The position numbers and the translations under genes are program-made. 46,413 bases of DNA, taken from positions 1-46,413 of IMG/VR virus record IMGVR_UViG_3300036985_004905. One strand, given 5' to 3'. The stretch comes from a virus. A model generated the notes under the pieces. That model was not told the DNA's origin and searched no databases. It saw only the letters and a list, made by a program, of their open reading frames with translations. Positions 1,151 through 40,983 of this stretch are shown here, in pieces; position 1 is the stretch's first letter, and each line of letters opens with the position of its first letter.

Positions 1151-2383
1151 TTAAATGAGTTCTTTGATTGCGTTTCCGCCATTTGCAATACGCATTGGTC
1201 GGCCATTTTTCGACGTATAATCTTTGCTGGTGTCTATATCAAGAGCAGAACAAACGGTTGCCATAAGGTCTGAAGCTTGATAGATCAATCCTTGAGGTTG
1301 AGTTCCGTCTTCTGAAGTTGCTCCAATGACTTGCCCATTCTTGAACAACCCTCCAGAAACAAAAGCACTCCAAGTCATAGCCCAGTGATCTCTGCCAGCA
1401 TCCTTATTGATTTTTGGTGTTCGACCAAACTCACCCATCATGATGATAGCAGTATTTTCCCACATATCAAGTCTTTTCAGATCAACTATCAATGCGGAAA
1501 TTGCTTTGTCTAATTCTGGCAATTTATTGTCTTTTAATGTGCCGTGAGTCATTTGATGTAAATCCCAGCCTCCAAATCCAACTTCAACAAAAGGAACTCC
1601 CACTTCAATCAAACGACGTGCCATCAATACGCTTCGGCCAAAGCCTGTGTTTCCATAAGCGTCTTTCACTTGTTGAGGCTCTGCGTCAACTTTTAGAGCA
1701 TCCATCTGCGGAGAAGTGTTTAACTTTATGGTTTTTTCATATAGCTTTTTATGGTCTCTTGGCAATTCTCCTCGTCTAGAATTGATAAAATTATCTTCTA
1801 CAAAAGACAAAGCGTCCAAACGATTTAGATTGAGTTTGTTGCCTAGATTATTTACTTTTCCATTGGAATCTACCACAAAAGGATTGTGTGAAGTTCCCAA
1901 AAATCCACCGCCGATACTTCCGGTGTTGACAGAAAAAAACGATGGTATATCTAATTCTTTTCTGTTTTTTCCAAGCTCAAAGGACACTACAGATCCAATG
2001 GATGGATGCTGCACTGTTGGAGAGGGTTTATATCCAGTGTGCATATAGTATGCGCCACGCTCATGATCTGCTTCTTGAGTGGACATGCTTCTGATCAAAG
2101 AAAAGCTATCGCCAAGCTGTGCCAACAATGGTAGATGTTCACAAATCTGAAAATCTCCAGTTGTGCTGATAGGCTTGAATGGACCAGCATGTTTGCTGTT
2201 TGGTTTCAAGTCCCACATATCGATAGTGGGAGGACCGCCGCCCAACCATATTAAAATTGCAGACTTTTGTTCTTTACGTAATTTAGATGCATTTTCAATG
2301 ATATTATTACCAAAAATGTAAGATGTGGACGCTAAAGCTGCAAGTCCACCCATATGCTCTAAGAAATGTCTTCTGTTTATCAT
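1151..2383 (-). CDS. DUF1501 family protein 1 (sulfatase/alkaline-phosphatase-like, Tat-exported)
   Basis: 410 aa. The N-terminus has a twin-arginine motif (NRRHFL, residues 3-8) followed by a hydrophobic segment to about residue 25, as is usual for DUF1501 proteins exported by Tat. Family landmarks: WLGGGPPTIDMWD at 46-58, HERG at 107-110, GYKPSP at 117-122, GGWDLH at 271-276, GEFGRTP at 317-323 and GRDHW at 330-334. These Asp/His positions match the metal-binding core of alkaline-phosphatase-superfamily enzymes. Full length compared with cellular members (about 400-480 aa). AAAGGA precedes the ATG, which overlaps the stop of the second DUF1501 gene as ATGA, so the two are translationally coupled. 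Substrate unknown; a sulfated or phosphorylated surface polymer is plausible inference. Confidence 0.85.
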   Translation of the reverse strand: MINRRHFLEHMGGLAALASTSYIFGNNIIENASKLRKEQKSAILIWLGGGPPTIDMWDLKPNSKHAGPFKPISTTGDFQICEHLPLLAQLGDSFSLIRSMSTQEADHERGAYYMHTGYKPSPTVQHPSIGSVVSFELGKNRKELDIPSFFSVNTGSIGGGFLGTSHNPFVVDSNGKVNNLGNKLNLNRLDALSFVEDNFINSRRGELPRDHKKLYEKTIKLNTSPQMDALKVDAEPQQVKDAYGNTGFGRSVLMARRLIEVGVPFVEVGFGGWDLHQMTHGTLKDNKLPELDKAISALIVDLKRLDMWENTAIIMMGEFGRTPKINKDAGRDHWAMTWSAFVSGGLFKNGQVIGATSEDGTQPQGLIYQASDLMATVCSALDIDTSKDYTSKNGRPMRIANGGNAIKELI

Positions 2384-3657
2384 ATAATGATATCCTTTAT
2401 AATTTTACCAAAATCAACAATTTCTATCGGTCTGCCTCCGGGAGCCATCAGTTCCTTGTCAGCATTGATTCCCATTTGATGGTATATCGTTGTTGCCCAA
2501 TCATGAATCTCAACAGGATTGTTTTGAGGTTCTGATCCAGTTGTATCCGAAGATCCGTAAACAATACCACCCTTGATTCCGCCACCCGCAAGAACTGAAC
2601 TAAAAACTCTAGGCCAATGGTCTCGTCCTCCTGTCGAATTAATTTTTGGAGTTCTTCCAAATTCAGAAATTACGCAAACTAAAGTTGAACTCAAAAGCCC
2701 TCTGTCTGATAGATCTTGAATCAATGAAGCAAAACCTTGATCAAAAGCTGGAAGTTGAGATTTGATACCATTTTCTATGCCGTCGTGCATATCCCAACCA
2801 CCATATGTCAAGGTGATGAACCTTGCTCCAGCTTCCACGAGCCTACGAGCCAAAAGCATTCTGGCTCCAGCGGTATTTCTACCGTATCTATCTCGTGTTT
2901 CTGGCGATTCTTTTTCCAACTTAAAGGCTTCTTGAGTATCAGAATTTCCTATCAAATCATAGGCTTTATCATAAAAGGAGTTCATAGCCATCAAACTATC
3001 TGCAGATTTATTTTGATTTATAAAATCTGAGTTTATAAGCTCTAAAGCCTTTTTCCTTTTGTCAAATCTTTTGGCGTCTATTTGAAGAGCAAGATCTTTC
3101 ACCTGAAAATTATCACTAGCAGGATCAGAGTTAAGATCAAAAGAACCAAAAGAACTGCTGAGATAACCAGTTCCAGCAAATTCATTTGATTGATTTGGAA
3201 TAGAAATGTACGCAGGTATACTGTTTCTAGATCCAAATTCATGACTGACAACGGCCCCTATGGATGGGTATTGAATCGCTGGACTTGGTTTATATCCAGT
3301 GAATATATTGTGTGTGCCTCGTTCATGAGCAGCTTCTCCATGAGTCATAGAGCGAAGTATTGTCAACTTATCTGCAATCGTCGCTGTTTTGATCAAAGAC
3401 TCATTGAGCTGAATACCATCGACATTGGTGCTGATTGGCTTCATTGACCCTCTGTATTCTACAGGCACATTGATTTTAGGATCAAACGATTCCTGAGCAG
3501 CAATACCTCCGGGAAGATATATAAATATCACACTCTTTGCTGTGCCTTCCACACTATTGTGACTCTTGATGTCGGCAAGAGTCATATTATGACCGATTGC
3601 AGCTAAAACTCCAGCTTGCAAGAAGCCTCTGCGACCAATATGAACGTGATGTAACAT
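2380..3657 (-). CDS. DUF1501 family protein 2 (sulfatase/alkaline-phosphatase-like, Tat-exported)
   Basis: 425 aa, a diverged paralogue of the following gene. Tat motif GRRGFLQAG at residues 8-16 and a hydrophobic stretch give a credible export signal. Family motifs: YLPGGIAAQESFDPK at 47-61, HGEAAHERGTHN at 106-117, GYKPSPAIQYPSIG at 121-134, GGWDMH at 286-291, SEFGRTP at 331-337 and GGRDHW at 343-348. All expected metal-site motifs appear intact, so it is unlikely to be decaying. Identity to the neighbour is concentrated in these motifs, suggesting an old duplication or acquisition as a pair. The stop overlaps the next ATG. Confidence 0.85.
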   Translation of the reverse strand: MLHHVHIGRRGFLQAGVLAAIGHNMTLADIKSHNSVEGTAKSVIFIYLPGGIAAQESFDPKINVPVEYRGSMKPISTNVDGIQLNESLIKTATIADKLTILRSMTHGEAAHERGTHNIFTGYKPSPAIQYPSIGAVVSHEFGSRNSIPAYISIPNQSNEFAGTGYLSSSFGSFDLNSDPASDNFQVKDLALQIDAKRFDKRKKALELINSDFINQNKSADSLMAMNSFYDKAYDLIGNSDTQEAFKLEKESPETRDRYGRNTAGARMLLARRLVEAGARFITLTYGGWDMHDGIENGIKSQLPAFDQGFASLIQDLSDRGLLSSTLVCVISEFGRTPKINSTGGRDHWPRVFSSVLAGGGIKGGIVYGSSDTTGSEPQNNPVEIHDWATTIYHQMGINADKELMAPGGRPIEIVDFGKIIKDIII

Positions 3658-3674: not shown

Positions 3675-4712
3675 TTAGCCCGGTGCTTCATAGAAACCTA
3701 TGTTGAAACCGGGACGTGTGCAATCTTTGATAGTCTCTTTCATGCCGTGTTGCTTTAAGTGTTTCTCTATGTATATACACATATTCTCATTGGTATCCTC
3801 CCAATTGTTTTTGCAAAAATGACATAGATATTTACACTTCATGTTGTTTCTTGTTGGATCTACAGGCTTTGGATTATTATTTTGTTGAATCTCTAAAAAC
3901 CTGTTTTTAAGTTTTCCTAAAAACCTTTGCTCATCTTCTGGTCCAAAGCAAATACTGAAAGGTTTTGGATCTGGCTTACCATCAGGGTCTTTATAAAAGA
4001 AGATGCTCATTATTCTATTGGGAAAATCTTTATACAATCTGGAAATAGCGTAGAAATATAAAAGTAACTGAGGGTCATCTTCCAGCTTCTTGTAATCCTT
4101 GGCTTGTCCTGTGGCCCAATCCATACGTCTGCCACTTTTCCAGTCGATAACTTCTATTGTAGAGTCATTCACCAAGGTTGTCAAGTCAATGGTTCCTTTT
4201 ATTGCGAGTTGACCCTTGACCATTTTGCCGTCTATTTCATATTCAAATTTAGCCCAATCTTCTTCTATGAGCAGATCAAAGTGAGCTTCTGGATGATGAA
4301 TGTTTCTGTTTCTGGGGTCAAACAGTCCGTCTGTATGCGTCAAAAAGCTAAAAACCGTATTTCGAACATCTGTTTTATCACTTTTAAGAAATTTATGTCT
4401 TGAACCATCTGAATATTTCAATATCGATAGATCAATAATTTTATCAACAAACCCATCGGTGTAAAGCTCATCTTTTGAGACCTTTACTTTCCCGCATTTA
4501 TCGTCTTGTATTTCCAGAATCTTTTTGCGTGGATTGTCTTGTTGGTATTTTTTCAAGGAAGCTAAAATTTCCATAACCTTATGTGACATTGTTCCCATAT
4601 CTGCCTTTTTGCCACTATCAGATTGCCACCCTAAGACATAAGTCAAAAAATATTGCATTTGGCAAAAATCATAATTGTTGTAACTGGAACTTCTTACATA
4701 CGTTATTAGCAT
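3675..4712 (-). CDS. RecB/Cas4-like PD-(D/E)XK nuclease with probable Fe-S cluster
   Basis: 345 aa. The PDDEXK_1 fold is indicated by GTMSH (40-44), GTIDLT (173-178), EVIDWKSG (187-194, the D-x-K catalytic segment) and the following Q-x(3)-Y motif around 215-219. One Cys near the N-terminus (C17) together with C293, C297, C300 and possibly C312 near the C-terminus reproduces the split cysteine arrangement that holds a [4Fe-4S] cluster in Cas4, AddB and related exonucleases. It lies directly downstream of the dNMP kinase and primase, so a role in DNA end processing, recombination or host DNA degradation is likely. No Cas1/Cas2 or CRISPR repeats occur in the window, so a CRISPR adaptation role is not supported here. 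Confidence 0.8.
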   Translation of the reverse strand: MLITYVRSSSYNNYDFCQMQYFLTYVLGWQSDSGKKADMGTMSHKVMEILASLKKYQQDNPRKKILEIQDDKCGKVKVSKDELYTDGFVDKIIDLSILKYSDGSRHKFLKSDKTDVRNTVFSFLTHTDGLFDPRNRNIHHPEAHFDLLIEEDWAKFEYEIDGKMVKGQLAIKGTIDLTTLVNDSTIEVIDWKSGRRMDWATGQAKDYKKLEDDPQLLLYFYAISRLYKDFPNRIMSIFFYKDPDGKPDPKPFSICFGPEDEQRFLGKLKNRFLEIQQNNNPKPVDPTRNNMKCKYLCHFCKNNWEDTNENMCIYIEKHLKQHGMKETIKDCTRPGFNIGFYEAPG

Positions 4713-14459: not shown

Positions 14460-15529
14460 AGTCCTAAATCTCCAAAATCCATGCTGTCTATATCGTTTTT
14501 ACTTGCACCAATCTTATAAGATGTTATTTCGTGTTCTTGAGGTGCGACCTGAACACTTTCACTTTGCATCCAAGCTTGAGTCCATCCAGCCACTGGGTTT
14601 TTCCCAACGTTGTCGTAAGGTAGCCCAATAGCCTTTCTTCTTGACATACATAGCCAATCAATGTATTGATGTAAAACGGTTTCATTGAGACCGATGATAG
14701 ATCCATCTTTGAACAAGTAAGAGGCCCATTCTTTTTCTTCATTGGCTGCATTTTCAAACATTTTTGTGGCAGCTTCTCGGCATTCATATGCAGTTTGAAC
14801 AAAGCCTTCTGACTCTTCCGTGTGTAGAATCTTTAGAATTTGCTGCGTGTTCATCAAGTGCAGAGCTTCATCTCTCTTTATGAGTTTGATGATATCAGCA
14901 TTTCCAGCCATCTTTTTGTTTTCAGCAAAAGCAAAACTACAAACAAAACTGACATAGAAACGAATAGCCTCCAAAATATTTATGCTGATGATAGTCATGT
15001 AGATTTGTTTTTTGATATCAGATTTTTTATCTGTACAACACGCCATACCCATCAGATTATTATAGTCTGTGATCGCAGTATTTGCACGTTTAATAATCTC
15101 TTTATCTTCGTAAATTCCTTCAAAAACTTCTGAAGGATCAGAGTACACATTCTGAATGATATAGCTATAGCTTTGAGAGTGAATTTTCTCAAAAAATTGC
15201 CAAGTCATCAGACATGCTTCTAGCTCAGTGTTGGTGACAAACTCAAGAAGAGTTGGAACTCCACGACAGATCACACTGTCGAGCATCGTTTGATATTTAA
15301 GGTTGGATGTGAAAATGAATTTTTCATTGTCACTCATCTGCTTAAAATCTCCCCTGTCTCTCTTTAGTTCAATTTCTTCTGGTCTCCAGAAGTTCATCAT
15401 TTGCTTGCTGTCAAGCTCTTTGAAGATAGGGTATTTGATTATGTCGTATCTTTGTACGCCAAGATCTTTTCCAAGAAACAATGGCTGACTCATTGGGTCA
15501 ACGTTTTTGAGATTAAAAATTGTTTTCAT
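14456..15529 (-). CDS. nrdB: Ribonucleotide reductase class Ia, beta subunit
   Basis: 357 aa. It holds the diiron-tyrosyl radical used by NrdA. ATG 15529 is chosen over ATG 15538 because GGAG then has usable spacing (about 10 nt) and the NrdA stop overlaps as ATGA. Expected ligands are visible: Asp near 83, the E-x2-H of FFEKIHSQSY (about 114-117), the radical Tyr four residues after that His, and the EAIRF and RDEALHL motifs. The intact Tyr indicates a conventional class Ia radical subunit rather than a Mn/Fe or Tyr-less variant. Confidence 0.93.
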   Translation of the reverse strand: MKTIFNLKNVDPMSQPLFLGKDLGVQRYDIIKYPIFKELDSKQMMNFWRPEEIELKRDRGDFKQMSDNEKFIFTSNLKYQTMLDSVICRGVPTLLEFVTNTELEACLMTWQFFEKIHSQSYSYIIQNVYSDPSEVFEGIYEDKEIIKRANTAITDYNNLMGMACCTDKKSDIKKQIYMTIISINILEAIRFYVSFVCSFAFAENKKMAGNADIIKLIKRDEALHLMNTQQILKILHTEESEGFVQTAYECREAATKMFENAANEEKEWASYLFKDGSIIGLNETVLHQYIDWLCMSRRKAIGLPYDNVGKNPVAGWTQAWMQSESVQVAPQEHEITSYKIGASKNDIDSMDFGDLGL

Positions 15530-17778
15530 ATAGCACATGCTCCAGAGTCACAGTTCATATCTTTTTCAGTATCCCCATCTCCATCGGGAGTATTAGCATA
15601 ATAGAAGTTTTTTAGACCATATTTATAACCATAAATCTGATCTTTGATCAGCGCACTAAGAGGAATATTTCCATCTGAATAATGAGAATAATTGTAGTAT
15701 AAATTAGTGCTCATGCTCATGTCAACAAACTTTTGAATAACAGCAGCTATATTGAGAATAGACTTGTTGTCTTTTATGTCCCAAGCTATAGTATAATAAT
15801 TCTTTCGCGAGTTATAGTTTGGAACAAGTTGTTTAAGAACACCATTCTTGGCCTTTTTATGGATCAATAAGCTTCTGACTGGTTCGATTCCATTGGTGCT
15901 GTTTTGAATGACAGAACTACTTTCGCAAGGCATAATAGCAGATAAAGTAGAATTGCGAAGACCATGTTTCTTGACCCTTTCACGTAACCCCTCCCAGTCC
16001 ATATTGTATTTAGGTTCAACAAGCTCATCGACTGTTTTCTTATACCAATCAATTGGTAGCAAGCCTTGAGAATATTTCGTATCTTTAAACTTTGGACAAG
16101 GCCCAAGAGATTCAGCTAATTCACAACTAGCGTTGATCAAATGCCATTGTATTTGCTCCATCGTTTCATGAACAAGTTTTAATGCAGCTTCATCATTATA
16201 AGATAGCTTATTCTTAGCTAAAAATCCAGCTAAATTAGTAATTCCAATACCAAGAGAACGTCTGTTCTTTGTGAAGGTTTCGCCAGCTAATATTGGATAT
16301 TCTTGATATTCTATGACAGAATCTAAAGTCTGCACAGCTATCCGGCAAGCTAATTCAATATCCTTTTCGTTGTTCAATTCTAGTAGATTGAGTGCCGATA
16401 GAATACAAATACCTATTTCACCCTTTGGGTCATTTATAGATTCGATTGGAACCGTGGGGTGTATAATTTCTTGGCATAAATTAGACATATAGCATGGTAT
16501 ATTCCACGATCCATGCTCATTAGCATTATCAATATTCATTGAATAAATTCGACCAGTTTCAAGTCTTTCACGAGCAAAAATTTCCGCTAATTTTCTAGCT
16601 GAGATCTTCTTTTTAAACTTTAAAGATCTAGAATTTTCATACTTTAAATAAAGTTCTTCAAACTTCTTGTTGTCACCAAACGCTTCGTATAATCCTTTTG
16701 CTTCATGAGGACTAAACAGTGTGATATCTTGATTTGCAATCAGACGATCATAAAATAATTTACAAAATTGAATTGAGTAGTCTAATTTTCGCACACGGTT
16801 ATCGTCAGTTCCAGCGTTATTTTTAAGAACCAAGACATCTTCAATCTCATAGTGCCAAAATGGGATATGGGCGGTCGCTGACCCACCCCTTAGGCCATTT
16901 TGACTTGTAGATTTTACTGCGGATTCGAAGTTTTTTAGATAAGGAATAACGCCAGTGTGAATAACTTCTCCTCCTCTGATGGGAGAATTGATTGGTCTGA
17001 TTCTTCCTATATTTAAACCGATGCCAGCTCTTCTGGCTGTATACTTGCCAACAGCGTGGATGCTAGAAAAGATACCATCTATATCATCATTCACGTCAAC
17101 AAGCACACAGCTTGCAAACTGACGGATATTGGTTCTGACTCCAGCCATGATAGGAGTAGGCAGGTTGATCTTGAAGGTAGAGTAGCAATCGTAGGCACGC
17201 TTAACGCCCTCTACAGAATCGAACAGGCACATGGCAATACACATGTAGGCATACTGAGGCGTTTCATAAATAACCCCGGTGCTTCTATTCTTGACAAGAT
17301 ACTTATCAATGAGTTGCTGTAAGCCAGCATATGTGAAAAGATCGTCACGAGAGTGATTTATATACACTCCAAGATTACGCACCTTATGGTACGGATCATT
17401 TGGCTTAGTGTCATCAGTCCATTTGTTTAAAACGTGATCGTGATAGACACCATTGTCCACATTCCTTTGTAGGAACAGAGTGAAGTCCGTTGGGACATCG
17501 CCGCAGCCCCATACTTCTTTTCTCAGTTGCATGTTTAGCAGTCTAGCCGCAACATACTGATAATTTGGACTTTGCGTTGAGATTAAATCATTTGCAGATT
17601 TAATCAAGATCTGGTGAATCTCTGAGCTTGATATTCCATCGTAAAGAGATAGATTAGCATTCATTTCTACCTCAGAAAAACTTACATTGTTGATATCCTT
17701 TGTCGCCCACTCAAGAACCTTATGAATTTTTTCTACAGAAAAATCTTCTTTTTCTCCGTTACGTTTTGTAACTTGCAT
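15526..17778 (-). CDS. nrdA: Ribonucleotide reductase class Ia, alpha subunit
   Basis: 750 aa, reduces NDPs to dNDPs. An ATP-cone regulatory domain fills about residues 1-90 (VTKRNGEKEDFSVEKIHKVL). Catalytic positions are present: FASCVLVD (first redox Cys), SNLCQEI with the N-L-C-x-E active-site motif, and GICILSALNL (second redox Cys). The C-terminus CDSGACAI keeps the mobile Cys pair re-reduced by thioredoxin or glutaredoxin. First gene after the promoter at 17827-17855, with AAGGAAG before the ATG; the leader is about 40 nt. Confidence 0.95.
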   Translation of the reverse strand: MQVTKRNGEKEDFSVEKIHKVLEWATKDINNVSFSEVEMNANLSLYDGISSSEIHQILIKSANDLISTQSPNYQYVAARLLNMQLRKEVWGCGDVPTDFTLFLQRNVDNGVYHDHVLNKWTDDTKPNDPYHKVRNLGVYINHSRDDLFTYAGLQQLIDKYLVKNRSTGVIYETPQYAYMCIAMCLFDSVEGVKRAYDCYSTFKINLPTPIMAGVRTNIRQFASCVLVDVNDDIDGIFSSIHAVGKYTARRAGIGLNIGRIRPINSPIRGGEVIHTGVIPYLKNFESAVKSTSQNGLRGGSATAHIPFWHYEIEDVLVLKNNAGTDDNRVRKLDYSIQFCKLFYDRLIANQDITLFSPHEAKGLYEAFGDNKKFEELYLKYENSRSLKFKKKISARKLAEIFARERLETGRIYSMNIDNANEHGSWNIPCYMSNLCQEIIHPTVPIESINDPKGEIGICILSALNLLELNNEKDIELACRIAVQTLDSVIEYQEYPILAGETFTKNRRSLGIGITNLAGFLAKNKLSYNDEAALKLVHETMEQIQWHLINASCELAESLGPCPKFKDTKYSQGLLPIDWYKKTVDELVEPKYNMDWEGLRERVKKHGLRNSTLSAIMPCESSSVIQNSTNGIEPVRSLLIHKKAKNGVLKQLVPNYNSRKNYYTIAWDIKDNKSILNIAAVIQKFVDMSMSTNLYYNYSHYSDGNIPLSALIKDQIYGYKYGLKNFYYANTPDGDGDTEKDMNCDSGACAI

Positions 17779-23320: not shown

Positions 23321-23665
23321 TCACATTAAATCGCTGGGTTTAATCAAAGGGTTATCCTTTTCCTCATTAATAGTAGTATCCTTAGTCTCTAAATAATCTA
23401 GTATTTTATTAAATCCTTGTAATTTAACAATCTCAGACACCAGAATTTTTAGTTCTTCTAGCCTGCCGTCTTTAGAAAAAGCTTCTTGAGCAATCCCTAA
23501 TGTTTGTAATTGAAATTTTGACGTTGGTATAGAGGACAGCAGCCTTGCAAACTGAATAAGCGTTTCGTCTGAATAATCCTCTATTAAAATGTCAATATAG
23601 ATTTCACCGTCTTCATCAATAGAGTACTCTAATTTAGCTAAAGTTTTATGTTCTTCATCGTTCAT
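23321..23665 (-). CDS. Acidic hypothetical protein
   Basis: 114 aa, acidic, starting with a three-strand beta pattern (LAKLEYSIDEDGEIYIDILIEDY) followed by helices. The start shares a base with the glycosyltransferase stop (TAATG). Not recognised; a small structural-assembly or regulatory role would fit its place beside the sigma factor. Confidence 0.55.
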   Translation of the reverse strand: MNDEEHKTLAKLEYSIDEDGEIYIDILIEDYSDETLIQFARLLSSIPTSKFQLQTLGIAQEAFSKDGRLEELKILVSEIVKLQGFNKILDYLETKDTTINEEKDNPLIKPSDLM

Positions 23666-26129: not shown

Positions 26130-26392
26130 TTGCCCCACTGGTCCTTGTCAATCAAACGGTCGGGAGGAACTAGCCTTTTAACTTTGAAAGTCTTGTCGTA
26201 CTCTATCTCTGTGTACGAGGATAGAACTGATTCAACCCTATCTATTTCTTCTTTTACCGCTGCCCTGAATTTATCACAAGAAACATTATCAGAGCGTAGA
26301 CTTATCCTATGCAAATCCCTTATGTAATCACCAAGCGGATTATTTGAATCTAGATAGTATGACTTAGATATTAGATCATTGATATTGCTCAT
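26126..26392 (-). CDS. Hypothetical protein
   Basis: 88 aa, helical, with a DKFRAAVKEEIDRVESVL helix and a C-terminal KRLVPPDRLIDKDQW. Located between and overlapping the YqeY-like and ATP-grasp genes by four bases each, so probably co-translated with them. Not recognised. Confidence 0.55.
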   Translation of the reverse strand: MSNINDLISKSYYLDSNNPLGDYIRDLHRISLRSDNVSCDKFRAAVKEEIDRVESVLSSYTEIEYDKTFKVKRLVPPDRLIDKDQWGK

Positions 26393-26802
26393 GCTGAGTT
26401 CCTCAGTGGTGAAATGACTTCTTTTGCCACGTCCCCGCTTGCGAGTAGCCCTAACGACTTCACATACTTGATCAGAACCCCGACTGCGTGCTTGTCACTT
26501 TGAGCGGCTTTGATCTCCCCAGAAATTTGGCCAGCATAAACTTCGAGTTCAACCTTGCTGACCTCTTTTGGTAAATAGCTACGCAGTAGTTCATTTTCAC
26601 GAGATAGCTTGGCACTCTCTCCAAATTTCATAGTCTCAGTGTTGCCCTTTACTATTTCTCTACAGTATCGAATGATAAAATCGTCAGTGAAGTCGTTTCT
26701 AGTTTGACACTCACCGAGAACAACCTTTAGGATGTCGCTGGCTAGCTGATTTCTCATTTTGGTGGCACTGATAATATTTTCCTTGATCACGTCGATAAGC
26801 AC
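26389..26802 (-). CDS. YqeY/GatB-tail family protein
   Basis: 137 aa from GTG 26802, chosen because AGGGAG lies 7 nt upstream and overlap with ThyX falls to 16 nt. The longer frame upstream is ThyX coding sequence. Features of the YqeY family: ASDILKVVLGECQTRN, a helix ending in ENELLRSYLPKEVS, and a final module with DKHAVGVLIKYVKSLGLLASGDVAKEVI, equivalent to the G-x-M-x(n)-G-x-D-G-x-x-V region. The family resembles the tRNA-binding tail of GatB amidotransferase; its role is unsettled, and in a phage it is unusual. Confidence 0.75.
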   Translation of the reverse strand: MLIDVIKENIISATKMRNQLASDILKVVLGECQTRNDFTDDFIIRYCREIVKGNTETMKFGESAKLSRENELLRSYLPKEVSKVELEVYAGQISGEIKAAQSDKHAVGVLIKYVKSLGLLASGDVAKEVISPLRNSA

Positions 26803-27707
26803 TGGTATTCTCCCTGTAGAGTCTTTCTGTACTGAATCCATCCTTGCCCGAAATTCCCACCATTTGAGAAGAATGAGTCTTCGAGGCCACACATAGCCTG
26901 ATGCTCAGTTGGGCTAAAGTGCTTTGAGGATACCAAACGGTCGTGCAGAGCAATATCCTGAGAGACATCTCTGGTGCCTTCGGCGGTGAGATAGCTGACG
27001 CGGGCACACCTACCGGCAGAAACCTTGATCAGATCATCCTTAGACAGGGACTCATCTCCGGGGAATCCTGTCAGGGGAAGATGCCAGTCTCCCACTTCGA
27101 GAATCTTCGGCCATGAAGCTCTCATAACGTCACGAGTCATATAAGCTAGTTTTTGAATGTGTGGTTCTGCTTCTGGATGGCATCGGAGTGCGAAGAAGTT
27201 ATTCCACACGCCATCAGTACCAGTACAAATAACTGTGGTCCACATCCAAGGCTCAAGAATACGATTAGCAATCTGTTTGTGTAGACCTAGTGCTAACAAC
27301 TGCTTAGCATAATACACGGCAGAGGTTCTTCCAGATAGCCACAGTTCTTCGCAATATTTGCTATCAGACATATGCGATTGCATAGTTGAGGCATGATTAC
27401 CATCATCGTCTGGAAGATGGCAAACTCCAGTAAATCTATACTTTTCGTTTATGTCTTGTATCTCCCCATATGCCTGCATCCCCTTTTGGGCAGCACCCCA
27501 ATGAATTGGGACGAATGGATCTTCCTCGACCTGCTTGATAAACTTCTCAACTGGTATAGCTCTGCTGCTAGCCGCATTGAAAGAGAACATACGATGTCTC
27601 AGATGTTCACTATGAATAATCCTTGGATAGGTCATCATGAGCGTAGTGAGCCGACTGCTGCTTGAGGCAGACAGACTATCTGCTAAAACTTTTACTTCAA
27701 ATCCCAT
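26787..27707 (-). CDS. thyX: Flavin-dependent thymidylate synthase
   Basis: 306 aa. It makes dTMP from dUMP using FAD and NADPH. The ThyX signature R-H-R-x(7)-S is present as RHRMFSFNAASSR (about 37-49). Other family segments are ANRILEPWMW (substrate-binding Arg), TDGVWNNFFALRCHPEAEPHIQ and a C-terminal SPTEHQA. It is longer than the shortest bacterial ThyX (220-250 aa), as many phage members are. With dCMP deaminase, RNR and dNMP kinase it completes a dTTP route. Confidence 0.92.
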   Translation of the reverse strand: MGFEVKVLADSLSASSSSRLTTLMMTYPRIIHSEHLRHRMFSFNAASSRAIPVEKFIKQVEEDPFVPIHWGAAQKGMQAYGEIQDINEKYRFTGVCHLPDDDGNHASTMQSHMSDSKYCEELWLSGRTSAVYYAKQLLALGLHKQIANRILEPWMWTTVICTGTDGVWNNFFALRCHPEAEPHIQKLAYMTRDVMRASWPKILEVGDWHLPLTGFPGDESLSKDDLIKVSAGRCARVSYLTAEGTRDVSQDIALHDRLVSSKHFSPTEHQAMCGLEDSFFSNGGNFGQGWIQYRKTLQGEYQCLST

Positions 27708-28373: not shown

Positions 28374-28395
28374 TTCTTTACCCTAACATAAAAAG

Positions 28396-28679
28396 TGGAC
28401 CATGTGGAAATCGAATCCACGTCTTGCCGAATGCATCAATATAAAGTCTACGTGTGTATTTGGGCTCTGCCCAACATATTCTGTTGCTGACTCAGTCAGC
28501 TTGTTTACAAGATATAACTATCCTGCTTTTGTTACAGGGGGCAGAATACCCCCGAGCTTATGCAGCTAGAGCGAAAGGCGTTGCTTTTGCACTTATTTTT
28601 CGATCAGTTTTTACGTAGCCACTGATCAACTACGACACGCATTCATACCAAACACTGACAATCAATACCTGTATGGCCC
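28396..28679 (-). ncRNA. ssrA: tmRNA (phage-encoded), proteolysis tag AKATPFALAA
   Basis: A complete one-piece tmRNA of 284 nt. The 5' GGGCCAT (28673-28679) pairs with 3' ATGGTCC (28397-28403) in a seven-base acceptor that contains the G3-U70 wobble required by alanyl-tRNA synthetase; discriminator A, CCA not encoded. The T-arm, with a TTCGATT loop, lies directly inside the 3' acceptor strand. GAATGC/GCATTC forms helix P2. An H-type pseudoknot PK1 is visible (28630-28634 with 28614-28618; 28621-28627 with 28602-28608), followed by an A-rich stretch and the resume codon. The tag is encoded at 28561-28590, with stop TAA at 28558-28560. Further hairpins (GGGGG/CCCCC, GCTGAC/GTCAGC, TTGGGC/GCCCAA) occupy the PK2-PK4 positions. 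It would rescue stalled ribosomes and tag products for proteolysis. Confidence 0.95.
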
Positions 28680-28700: not shown

Positions 28701-28773
28701 TACACCTACCAAGGTTCGAACTTGGACTATAACTGTCAAAGAGTTATGTGCTAACCAGTTACACTACGGGTGC
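28701..28773 (-). tRNA. tRNA-Gln (anticodon TTG)
   Basis: 73-nt cloverleaf: acceptor GCACCCG/TAGGTGT with two wobbles and one mismatch, a D-arm GTG...CAC containing GG, anticodon stem TAACT/AGTTA with loop CTTTGAC (anticodon TTG), and a normal T-arm CCAAG-TTCGAAC-CTTGG. CCA is not encoded. It lies 21 nt upstream of the tmRNA. Confidence 0.9.
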
Positions 28774-28785
28774 CAACTATAAGAA

Positions 28786-28950
28786 TCTCCTCAAGAGAAA
28801 GAGTACAGCCACAACTCAAGTGATCAAGCTAAGTTGCCTAAAGCTACGTCGTGTTTTTATCACCCAGCCTAGGCTTGCCTCTGGGTGTTTATTTCACGAA
28901 AACCACGGTCTTTGGCCCCCTTATACGTTACCTGTATTCTCTTGAGGAGA
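28786..28950 (-). ncRNA. Candidate structured RNA closed by a 14-bp perfect helix
   Basis: Arms 28786-28799 and 28937-28950 are perfect inverted repeats of 14 bp. Inside, TACAG/CTGTA continues the helix; a nested hairpin pairs TCGTG with CACGA and CACCCAG with CTGGGTG around a symmetric A/T internal loop (about 28850-28900); CAACT/AGTTG forms another arm. No protein frame on the minus strand explains it. It lies between tRNA-Gln and two tRNA-like elements. Strand is assumed from its neighbours. It may be one domain of a larger RNA extending to 29291. Confidence 0.6.
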
Positions 28951-28954
28951 ATGG

Positions 28955-29061
28955 AAGCTAATGGTGGAATTGGACCACCGATGGTGCTTGTTAACTACGG
29001 GTACGCCCCCATCTAGCCTTATAAATTCCGTATACAAAACTTATAAGTTCCAGCTTTAGCT
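28955..29061 (-). ncRNA. tRNA-like structure B (non-canonical T-loop, encoded CCA)
   Basis: A seven-base acceptor (AGCTAAA at 29055-29061 with ATTAGCT at 28956-28962, six pairs) and, directly adjacent as in tRNA, a 5-bp T-arm (28963-28979) with loop TCCAATT. The 3' acceptor is followed by T then CCA. The 107-nt length and absence of a clear D-arm and anticodon arm argue against a working tRNA. CTTATAA/TTATAAG forms an internal helix. Confidence 0.4.
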
Positions 29062-29065
29062 ATGG

Positions 29066-29190
29066 ATGAGACGGCGGGAATTGCACCCGCTAAGCAAAGT
29101 TGTCCGATACTTAATCAGCGTAGCTTTCGCCACGTCGGATCGCTTATGCCATGCCGTTACACTGTGTGTCGCTGTCCACACCGCGTCTCA
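29066..29190 (-). ncRNA. tRNA-like structure A (non-canonical T-loop, encoded CCA)
   Basis: Perfect seven-base acceptor TGAGACG/CGTCTCA (29184-29190 with 29067-29073). A T-arm GCGGG-TGCAATT-CCCGC (29074-29090) abuts it, and T then CCA follow the acceptor (29063-29066). Next to the 5' acceptor strand are CG and a GTGT/ACAC hairpin in the D-arm place. TAAGC/GCTTA encloses about 45 nt containing a GAAA-tetraloop hairpin. At 125 nt it is too long for an ordinary tRNA and no anticodon is assignable. Alternatives: an interrupted tRNA, or a T-loop module of a large RNA. Confidence 0.45.
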
Positions 29191-29196
29191 GATTAA

Positions 29197-29291
29197 GCCA
29201 GATTCCGGCTTAAGTCCCACACCGGCCCCAAACAGAGCATTGTGTCTGATCAGGTTGCTCTTGCACTCGGTGTATGATCTCGAAATCTGGC
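29197..29291 (-). ncRNA. Structured RNA element D just after ssb, with competing helices
   Basis: An 8-bp perfect terminal helix (29284-29291 with 29197-29204) encloses ACACCG/CGGTGT and AGAGCA/TGCTCT helices. The 3' strand of the terminal helix can instead join a local perfect hairpin, TTAAGCC/GGCTTAA, so two folds exclude each other. The ssb stop lies 22 nt upstream on the same transcript. No T-arm is present, so it is not a tRNA despite the 95-nt length. Confidence 0.45.
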
Positions 29292-29312
29292 AACTCCTAT
29301 CGGAGTCAATCT

Positions 29313-29648
29313 CTATTCCTTCGTCTTTGGAGTGATAGTCGATGGTTCAGGACCAAGAGAGATTTCATCTGCCATAACGCAGATAGAACTCTTCTTGTTG
29401 TTGTTTTCATCCTCATAATCGTCAATCTTTAGCTTGCCGGTGATTGAAACAAGCCTGCCCTTTACAAGCAGAGAGTTTAGATTCTCTGCCATCTTTCCGA
29501 AGCAAAGAATATTGATAAACAATGTTTCGTCATTCCTACGGTCATTGACAGCAAGTCGGAACTTGCTCATCGCAGTGCCCTTCTTGGTGTTGGTGAAGAT
29601 AGCATCATTTGTCAAACGTCCAGCACCATTCCAACAATTCTGATTCAT
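29313..29648 (-). CDS. ssb: Single-stranded DNA-binding protein (OB fold)
   Basis: 111 aa. A bacterial-type SSB domain: NQNCWNGAGRLTNDAIFTNTKKGTAMSKFRLAVNDR, then LFINILCFGKMAENLNSLLVKGRLVSITGKL, then the final strand ICVMADEISL. The family signature W/F-x-G-R-L and V-x-I-x-G-x-L are recognisable. It is short and has no acidic DDDIPF-type tail, so interaction with host SSB partners may be absent. Coats ssDNA in replication and recombination with UvsX. Confidence 0.92.
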   Translation of the reverse strand: MNQNCWNGAGRLTNDAIFTNTKKGTAMSKFRLAVNDRRNDETLFINILCFGKMAENLNSLLVKGRLVSITGKLKIDDYEDENNNKKSSICVMADEISLGPEPSTITPKTKE

Positions 29649-40862: not shown

Positions 40863-40887
40863 CGGTTGGTTTCAAATATTTATCGAA

Positions 40888-40983
40888 AGGGTAAGGCAGG
40901 AATTGCACCTACTTGTCGGTCCTTCCCCGACTATATGGCATGGAGCCATTCAGAGCGTGTCAACTAAACCACGCCGCTTACCC
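40888..40983 (-). ncRNA. tRNA-like structure C, atypical class II tRNA
   Basis: 96 nt. Perfect acceptor GGGTAAG/CTTACCC (40977-40983 with 40889-40895), CG at positions 8-9, a GCGTG...CACGC D-arm, an elongated anticodon-like stem of eight positions with one mismatch and loop CTCCATG (nominal anticodon CCA), a GTCGG/CCGAC variable arm and a T-arm GTAGG-TGCAATT-CCTGC (40896-40912). The T-loop has G where U55 is nearly universal, and C replaces U8. A working Trp or Ser/Leu tRNA is doubtful. The flanking 40984-41047 contains two more hairpins: GTGGC-GAAA-GCCAC at 40985-40998, and GCACG/CGTGC between 41000 and 41018. Confidence 0.5.

Follow-up and report, generated by a model that had tools for sequence, protein, structure and literature searches.

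At least two conserved RNA families absent from Rfam lie beside a phage tmRNA gene

Besides tRNAs and tmRNAs, phages encode a few stable RNAs that are puzzling (RNA C and D of T4, GOLLD, ROOL), for the most part without a known role. The species 1 and 2 RNAs of T4 (rnaC, 70908-71046; rnaD, 71053-71171; NC_000866) are small stable RNAs of 119-139 nt from the phage tRNA cluster. ROOL and GOLLD, whose function is likewise unknown, are found in phages close to tRNA islands (PMC12286853). The tmRNA combines a tRNA-like acceptor with a T-arm and has no anticodon, and tag-less phage forms of it exist, as in DS6A (PMC11915505). Bacterial Y RNAs (YrlA, RF02553; YrlB, RF02565) mimic tRNAs, and RAGATH-21 (RF03097) is a motif found near ribozyme-associated genes, with unknown function. 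Here we compare these systems with an array of structured RNAs in a 46,413-base IMG/VR virus record, the whole of which was analysed and is referred to below as the window.

Positions 28786-29291 of the window are non-coding, with no ORF of note covering them, and fold beyond chance on the minus strand (-184.2 kcal/mol, z = -4.49; 0/100 shuffles as good). The plus strand gave a z of -3.23 (0/100 shuffles as good); because the minus strand folds more strongly, we conclude that it is the RNA strand. These values bear out the dense non-coding structure that an initial annotation had reported between tRNA-Gln and ssb. The region is a chain of four separate structured RNA modules of 85-170 nt, each with its own closing stem: E1 (29197-29291, ~95 nt), TLS2 (29063-29190), TLS3 (28952-29061) and element A (28785-28952). 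On the minus strand the order is ssb, E1, TLS2, TLS3, A, tRNA-Gln, tmRNA, all co-oriented with one another and with the neighbouring genes, with ssb (29313-29648; Pfam SSB, 8.1e-19) immediately upstream of the array and tRNA-Gln (TTG; 28701-28773) called by both ARAGORN and Rfam. No promoter-like site for the array scored above chance. A search with the whole region matched nothing in cultured phage genomes, and none of the four modules reaches an Rfam threshold, in agreement with the earlier suggestion that the RNA might be unclassified.

Past tRNA-Gln the array continues into a gene absent from the initial annotation, a one-piece tmRNA on the minus strand (28393-28679; RF00023, 77.4 bits, E 1.9e-28), which ARAGORN misses. 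It has the features expected of a tmRNA, as its tag frame, AKATPFALAA-stop, ends in ALAA and its acceptor, GGGCCAU/AUGGUCC, carries G3-U70 (both read from the sequence). The tmRNAs of related phages are one-piece or permuted two-piece. Elsewhere on the minus strand of the window, the 3' end of thyX (26389-27707; Pfam Thy1) and the next ORF share about 100 bases, and two adjacent DUF1501 proteins are encoded at 1151-3657 (E 7e-89 and 7e-110). Because the DUF1501 family is abundant in Planctomycetota, this pair may be host-derived, hinting at the host.

We gathered relatives from IMG/VR with ssb as bait and obtained three close ones (L002-L004, ssb 98-99% identical) and many distant ones; the gene downstream of the tmRNA, used as bait, recovered just the three known relatives. 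In L002, L003 and L004, E1 (window 29192-29320), A (28779-28952, 91% identity), tRNA-Gln and the tmRNA are retained. The 240 bases between E1 and A, the TLS2/TLS3 stretch, give way to a different tRNA-like RNA and an ORF, and another ORF is inserted after A. The order is tRNA-Asn, E1, another tRNA-like RNA and A in L122; E1, other RNAs, A, tRNAs and tmRNA in L085/L123 and L090/L127; and A, a tRNA-like RNA and tmRNA in L126/L020. L124 carries A between two genes, directly before ssb, without E1 or a TLS unit, and L017 lacks A although it is colinear on both flanks with L020, where A is present. As relatives split up, exchange, relocate or omit the modules, the region cannot be one obligate RNA of 500 nt.

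The cassettes of these relatives hold further structured RNAs. A manA RNA (RF01745) lies directly after ssb in L009 (3154-3331), a position taken by E1 in the window, which itself has no manA match, and L005 and L017 have similar unannotated structured gaps after ssb. On the minus strand of L126, a 112-nt tRNA-like RNA with a D-arm, a canonical T-arm and a 27-nt 'anticodon loop' stands between A and the tmRNA, and another of 116 nt occupies 4070-4185 (minus strand). YrlB-like elements occur in the same cassette of L085/L123 (L123 1646-1717) and L090/L127 (G006 23513-23584), scoring 28.6 and 22.4 bits in the two relatives. We considered a Y RNA identity and rejected it, as such elements are absent from the window, where neither YrlA nor YrlB has an Rfam match, and no TROVE/Ro gene was found in the records that carry them.

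Element A is closed by a 14-bp stem, UCUCCUCAAGAGAA/UUCUCUUGAGGAGA, which 0/1000 shuffles of its two flanks reach. The initial annotation had listed it as a closing stem; it is real but encloses element A alone, not the entire region. In L123 the closing stem has an unrelated sequence yet still pairs over 13 bp, beyond 1000 shuffles, and in L127 it has 9 bp, reached in 5/1000 shuffles; the same test found no significant closing stem in the two most distant members. Further members came from 16-base scans, whereas an 18-mer scan for more returned known members and chance matches alone. Six distinct sequences share a core (28805-28935 in the window) with GGUAAYGUAU, ACCGU, AAAUAAA and AUAAAAA, and the window copy combines this core, with its AAAUAAA/AUAAAAA loop, with the five helices that define the family. 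A covariance model, R1, built from four A sequences recovered L124/L128 (7e-14) and L126/L020 (3e-12), all outside model building. Across 25 related phage records R1 found A in 9, all previously known carriers, and in 0 of the other 16. When the six distinct sequences were realigned, a step biased towards the model structure, 98.4% of cells were paired compared with 26-45% in slid controls, and 7/22 pairs had changed on both sides. Rfam 15 holds no family corresponding to element A, and four pattern matches in GTDB genomes were attributable to chance. On this comparative evidence, which for A as for E1 comes from few distinct sequences, we class element A as a conserved family of junction RNAs. 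A riboswitch reading of A, drawn from a ribosome-binding site in the closing stem, was rejected; it holds in L002 alone.

TLS2 has a 7-bp acceptor (UGAGACG/CGUCUCA), then a linker, CG, and a D-arm-like hairpin, GUGUG-GACAGCGA-CACAC (5 bp, loop GACAGCGA). Its variable middle includes a hairpin with a GAAA tetraloop, CGUGGC-GAAA-GCUACG (29119-29134), and is followed by a T-arm, GCGGG UGCAAUU CCCGC (29074-29090), and a 3' end UCCA, so that a 7-bp acceptor stacks on a 5-bp T-arm with a 7-nt loop as in tRNA. TLS3 follows the same acceptor/T-arm/UCCA plan, with AGCUAAA/AUUAGCU (6 pairs, one mismatch), the T-arm GGUGG UCCAAUU CCACC (28963-28979) and a 3' UCCA. The tetraloop hairpin and the two T-loop hairpins were thus found where the initial annotation had put them. 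Both T-loop arms are followed by a 7-nt acceptor strand and UCCA, with the partner strand present upstream; in the 46 kb TLS2 and TLS3 are the only such units, none lies on the plus strand, and Markov shuffles gave at most 2 per strand and in most cases none. Neither TLS2 nor TLS3 has a recognised cloverleaf with D-arm, anticodon arm and T-arm, as ARAGORN and RF00005 call tRNA-Gln and tRNA-Tyr alone. TLS3 was identified by its architecture; no homologue of it was found, and it could be a relic. A permuted tmRNA reading of 29001-29090 stayed below threshold (17.4 bits) and was superseded by the TLS2 family.

We define that family by a 7-bp acceptor, a 2-nt linker, a 5-bp hairpin, a variable middle and a T-arm, all present in TLS2. 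A gapped two-loop pattern gave 19 matches in IMG/VR, 14 of them with the full architecture. Both loops and two pairs of the T-stem were set by this pattern, and their constancy therefore carries no weight, whereas it left the acceptor and hairpin stems free. In an alignment of ten distinct members 97.6% of cells were paired compared with 31-47% when slid, 12/17 pairs had changed on both sides, and the score was 0.78 compared with 0.20 in shuffles. Most acceptor pairs showed three or four pair types; the acceptor partner was the best of about ten offsets, and the chosen offset was identical in 10/10 members. No consensus fold emerged for the middle part. The members are not called as tRNAs and reach no Rfam threshold.

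A second covariance model, R2, scored 100.1 bits on TLS2, a training member, and also found a second copy on the minus strand of the window (40885-40983; 31.3 bits, E = 2e-6), independent of training. This copy is shorter than TLS2 and has the acceptor GGGUAAG/CUUACCC, the hairpin GCGUG-GUUUAGUUGA-CACGC, the T-arm GUAGG-UGCAAUU-CCUGC and two further hairpins, i.e. four clean hairpins within a 7-bp acceptor. It resembles a type II tRNA with a long variable arm, yet is not called as a tRNA. R2 also detected two copies in a relative, G002 (9e-14, at 15509-15654, and 3e-7), and a member in L131 (3554-3677; E 0.0019); like the second copy in the window, these had not come from the two-loop pattern. 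In the L131 member a hairpin loop AUGGGAA goes with an ordinary T-loop, UUCGAAU, where elsewhere GACAGCGA goes with UGCAAUU. Both loop pairs would fit a tRNA-like elbow pairing, in very few cases so far, and a mechanical scan of the collected loci for the architecture with free loops returned such units alone. The exact TLS2 3' sequence was not found in IMG/VR, and blastn found no TLS homologues in cultured phages. R2 found none in 249 Pseudomonadota genomes either, a weak negative given stricter filters and no positive control. Judged by these comparisons, the TLS2 family is widespread and occurs in many unrelated phages.

Among the described RNAs, the T4 species 1 RNA is by analogy the nearest classical counterpart in kind. 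Like TLS2, rnaC has a T-arm (CCGGG UUCGAAU CCCGG) near its 3' end. Unlike TLS2, the species 1 and 2 RNAs lack the GACAGCGA hairpin and a clean 7-bp acceptor, and neither R1 nor R2 (the latter at E <= 10) found anything in the T4 tRNA cluster, so that no module is common to both. TLS2 shares with tmRNA the acceptor and T-arm without an anticodon; it differs in having no tag frame, A3-U70 instead of G3-U70 and a D-arm-like hairpin, and a true tmRNA adjoins it in the array.

In E1 a 10-bp closing stem, CCAGAUUUCG/CGGAAUCUGG, is accompanied by an inner stem, and the apical part varies. With homologues in L002, L004, L122, L127 and L123 it is represented by six distinct sequences and is confined to the phage group of the window. 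The outer stem is mostly invariant, and in the inner stem 4/7 pairs have changed on both sides. A third model, R3, gave E = 4.5e-22 in the window and 7.6e-15 in L123, both training members. The apical type of E1 differs between L002 (3358-3458) and L004 (3358-3442), whose ssb genes are ~1% apart, which suggests recombination within the module. The collection of homologues and covariation check proposed with the initial annotation thus revealed compensatory changes in the TLS2 family, in A and in the inner stem of E1. By these changes TLS2 and A qualify as RNA families conserved in other phages, with weaker support for E1; Rfam thus lacks at least two, perhaps three, families that lie beside a phage tmRNA.

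The initial annotation had proposed one large ornate RNA of ~500 nt, which could be a new class. Such an RNA, comparable to GOLLD and ROOL, would work as an RNA-only assembly. The length, the T-loop arms, the tetraloop, the tRNA-adjacent position in a phage and the strong total folding energy all speak for such an RNA, and GOLLD and ROOL lie near tRNAs like this array. However, these are single RNAs of several hundred nucleotides, and the continuous conservation over such a length that marks them is lacking here, as the modules part company in relatives and each has its own closing stem. Rfam gave no GOLLD or ROOL match in the window at gathering or at E <= 10, as the annotation itself had anticipated. 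We consider a single large RNA very improbable and, as an obligate unit, refuted; the observation is confirmed, but its unit was drawn too large, and the earlier interpretation is supported in part. It is decidedly unlikely that TLS2 and TLS3 are instead decaying or intron-bearing tRNA genes in a decayed tRNA array. Phage tRNA clusters often decay, and both units retain a seven-bp acceptor, a T-arm and an encoded UCCA; yet decay would not explain why the hairpin and linker of TLS2 turn up, with compensatory changes, across many unrelated phages, and the tRNA callers pass over both units, of which TLS3 alone could be such a remnant.

The modules might also be cis-acting leaders or intercistronic elements, riboswitch-like or stabilizing, that set the expression of the next gene. 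In several TLS members an ORF with a good ribosome-binding site does begin 15-60 nt past the 3' end, and in L002 GAGGAG, directly ahead of an ATG, is part of the 3' strand of the A closing stem. But in the window, L085 and L090 what follows is a tRNA or another RNA, the genes after A are unrelated from one phage to another, and the TLS 3' end is tRNA-like, so that we regard this reading as unlikely in general. As TLS members other than TLS2 mostly lack an encoded CCA and often stand this close to a downstream ORF, they may nevertheless act in cis. Finally, the TLS2 family could be the wider family of RAGATH-21 and hence known in outline. Several TLS members show a sub-threshold likeness to RAGATH-21, mostly in the T-arm, the L132 member scoring best (26.1 bits, E 0.005). 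Some 1.06 Mb of sequence gave eight weak RAGATH-21 matches, four of them within TLS members (rough chance 5e-9), so that a distant relation is likely. All scores nevertheless lie far under the curated threshold of 70.3 bits; the second copy in the window scores 9.3 bits and other members 9-13 bits, mostly from the T-arm alone. No TLS member qualifies for RAGATH-21, and we think it unlikely that the two are one family.

We favour, with fair confidence, a phage RNA-gene cassette whose precursor is cut by host tRNA-processing enzymes, with TLS2 as a tRNA mimic and A as a trans-acting RNA. RNase P and 3' processing enzymes recognise acceptor/T-arm stacks. The array would be transcribed as one precursor and, because TLS2, TLS3 and tRNA-Gln offer such stacks in tandem, these enzymes would recognise them and cut the array into separate RNAs, thereby releasing E1 and A. 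TLS2 is predicted to fold as the acceptor/T-arm half of a tRNA in which the GACAGCGA hairpin replaces the D-arm. As it has no conserved anticodon arm, it would not serve as a decoding tRNA; in trans it may be a stable tRNA mimic that occupies or recruits a host tRNA-binding factor. Element A may likewise act in trans, its invariant junction, which suggests such binding, and its A-rich 7x7 internal loop contacting a conserved host component.

A further proposal, for which we see about as much reason to believe as to doubt, is that two undescribed phage RNA classes stand here side by side. One would be a widespread tRNA mimic with a different elbow loop-loop pair (GACAGCGA/UGCAAUU, or AUGGGAA/UUCGAAU in L131), the other the rare junction RNA A, moving as a cassette among tmRNA-carrying phages, with host translation or RNA processing as the presumed target of both. 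The two covariance models, R1 and R2, let element A and the TLS2 family be found in any genome. Compensatory changes in many uncultivated phages define the tRNA-shaped family, which makes it a concrete, testable class and raises the question of which host tRNA-binding factor it engages. Phages may use such tRNA mimics to steer the translation machinery of their hosts.
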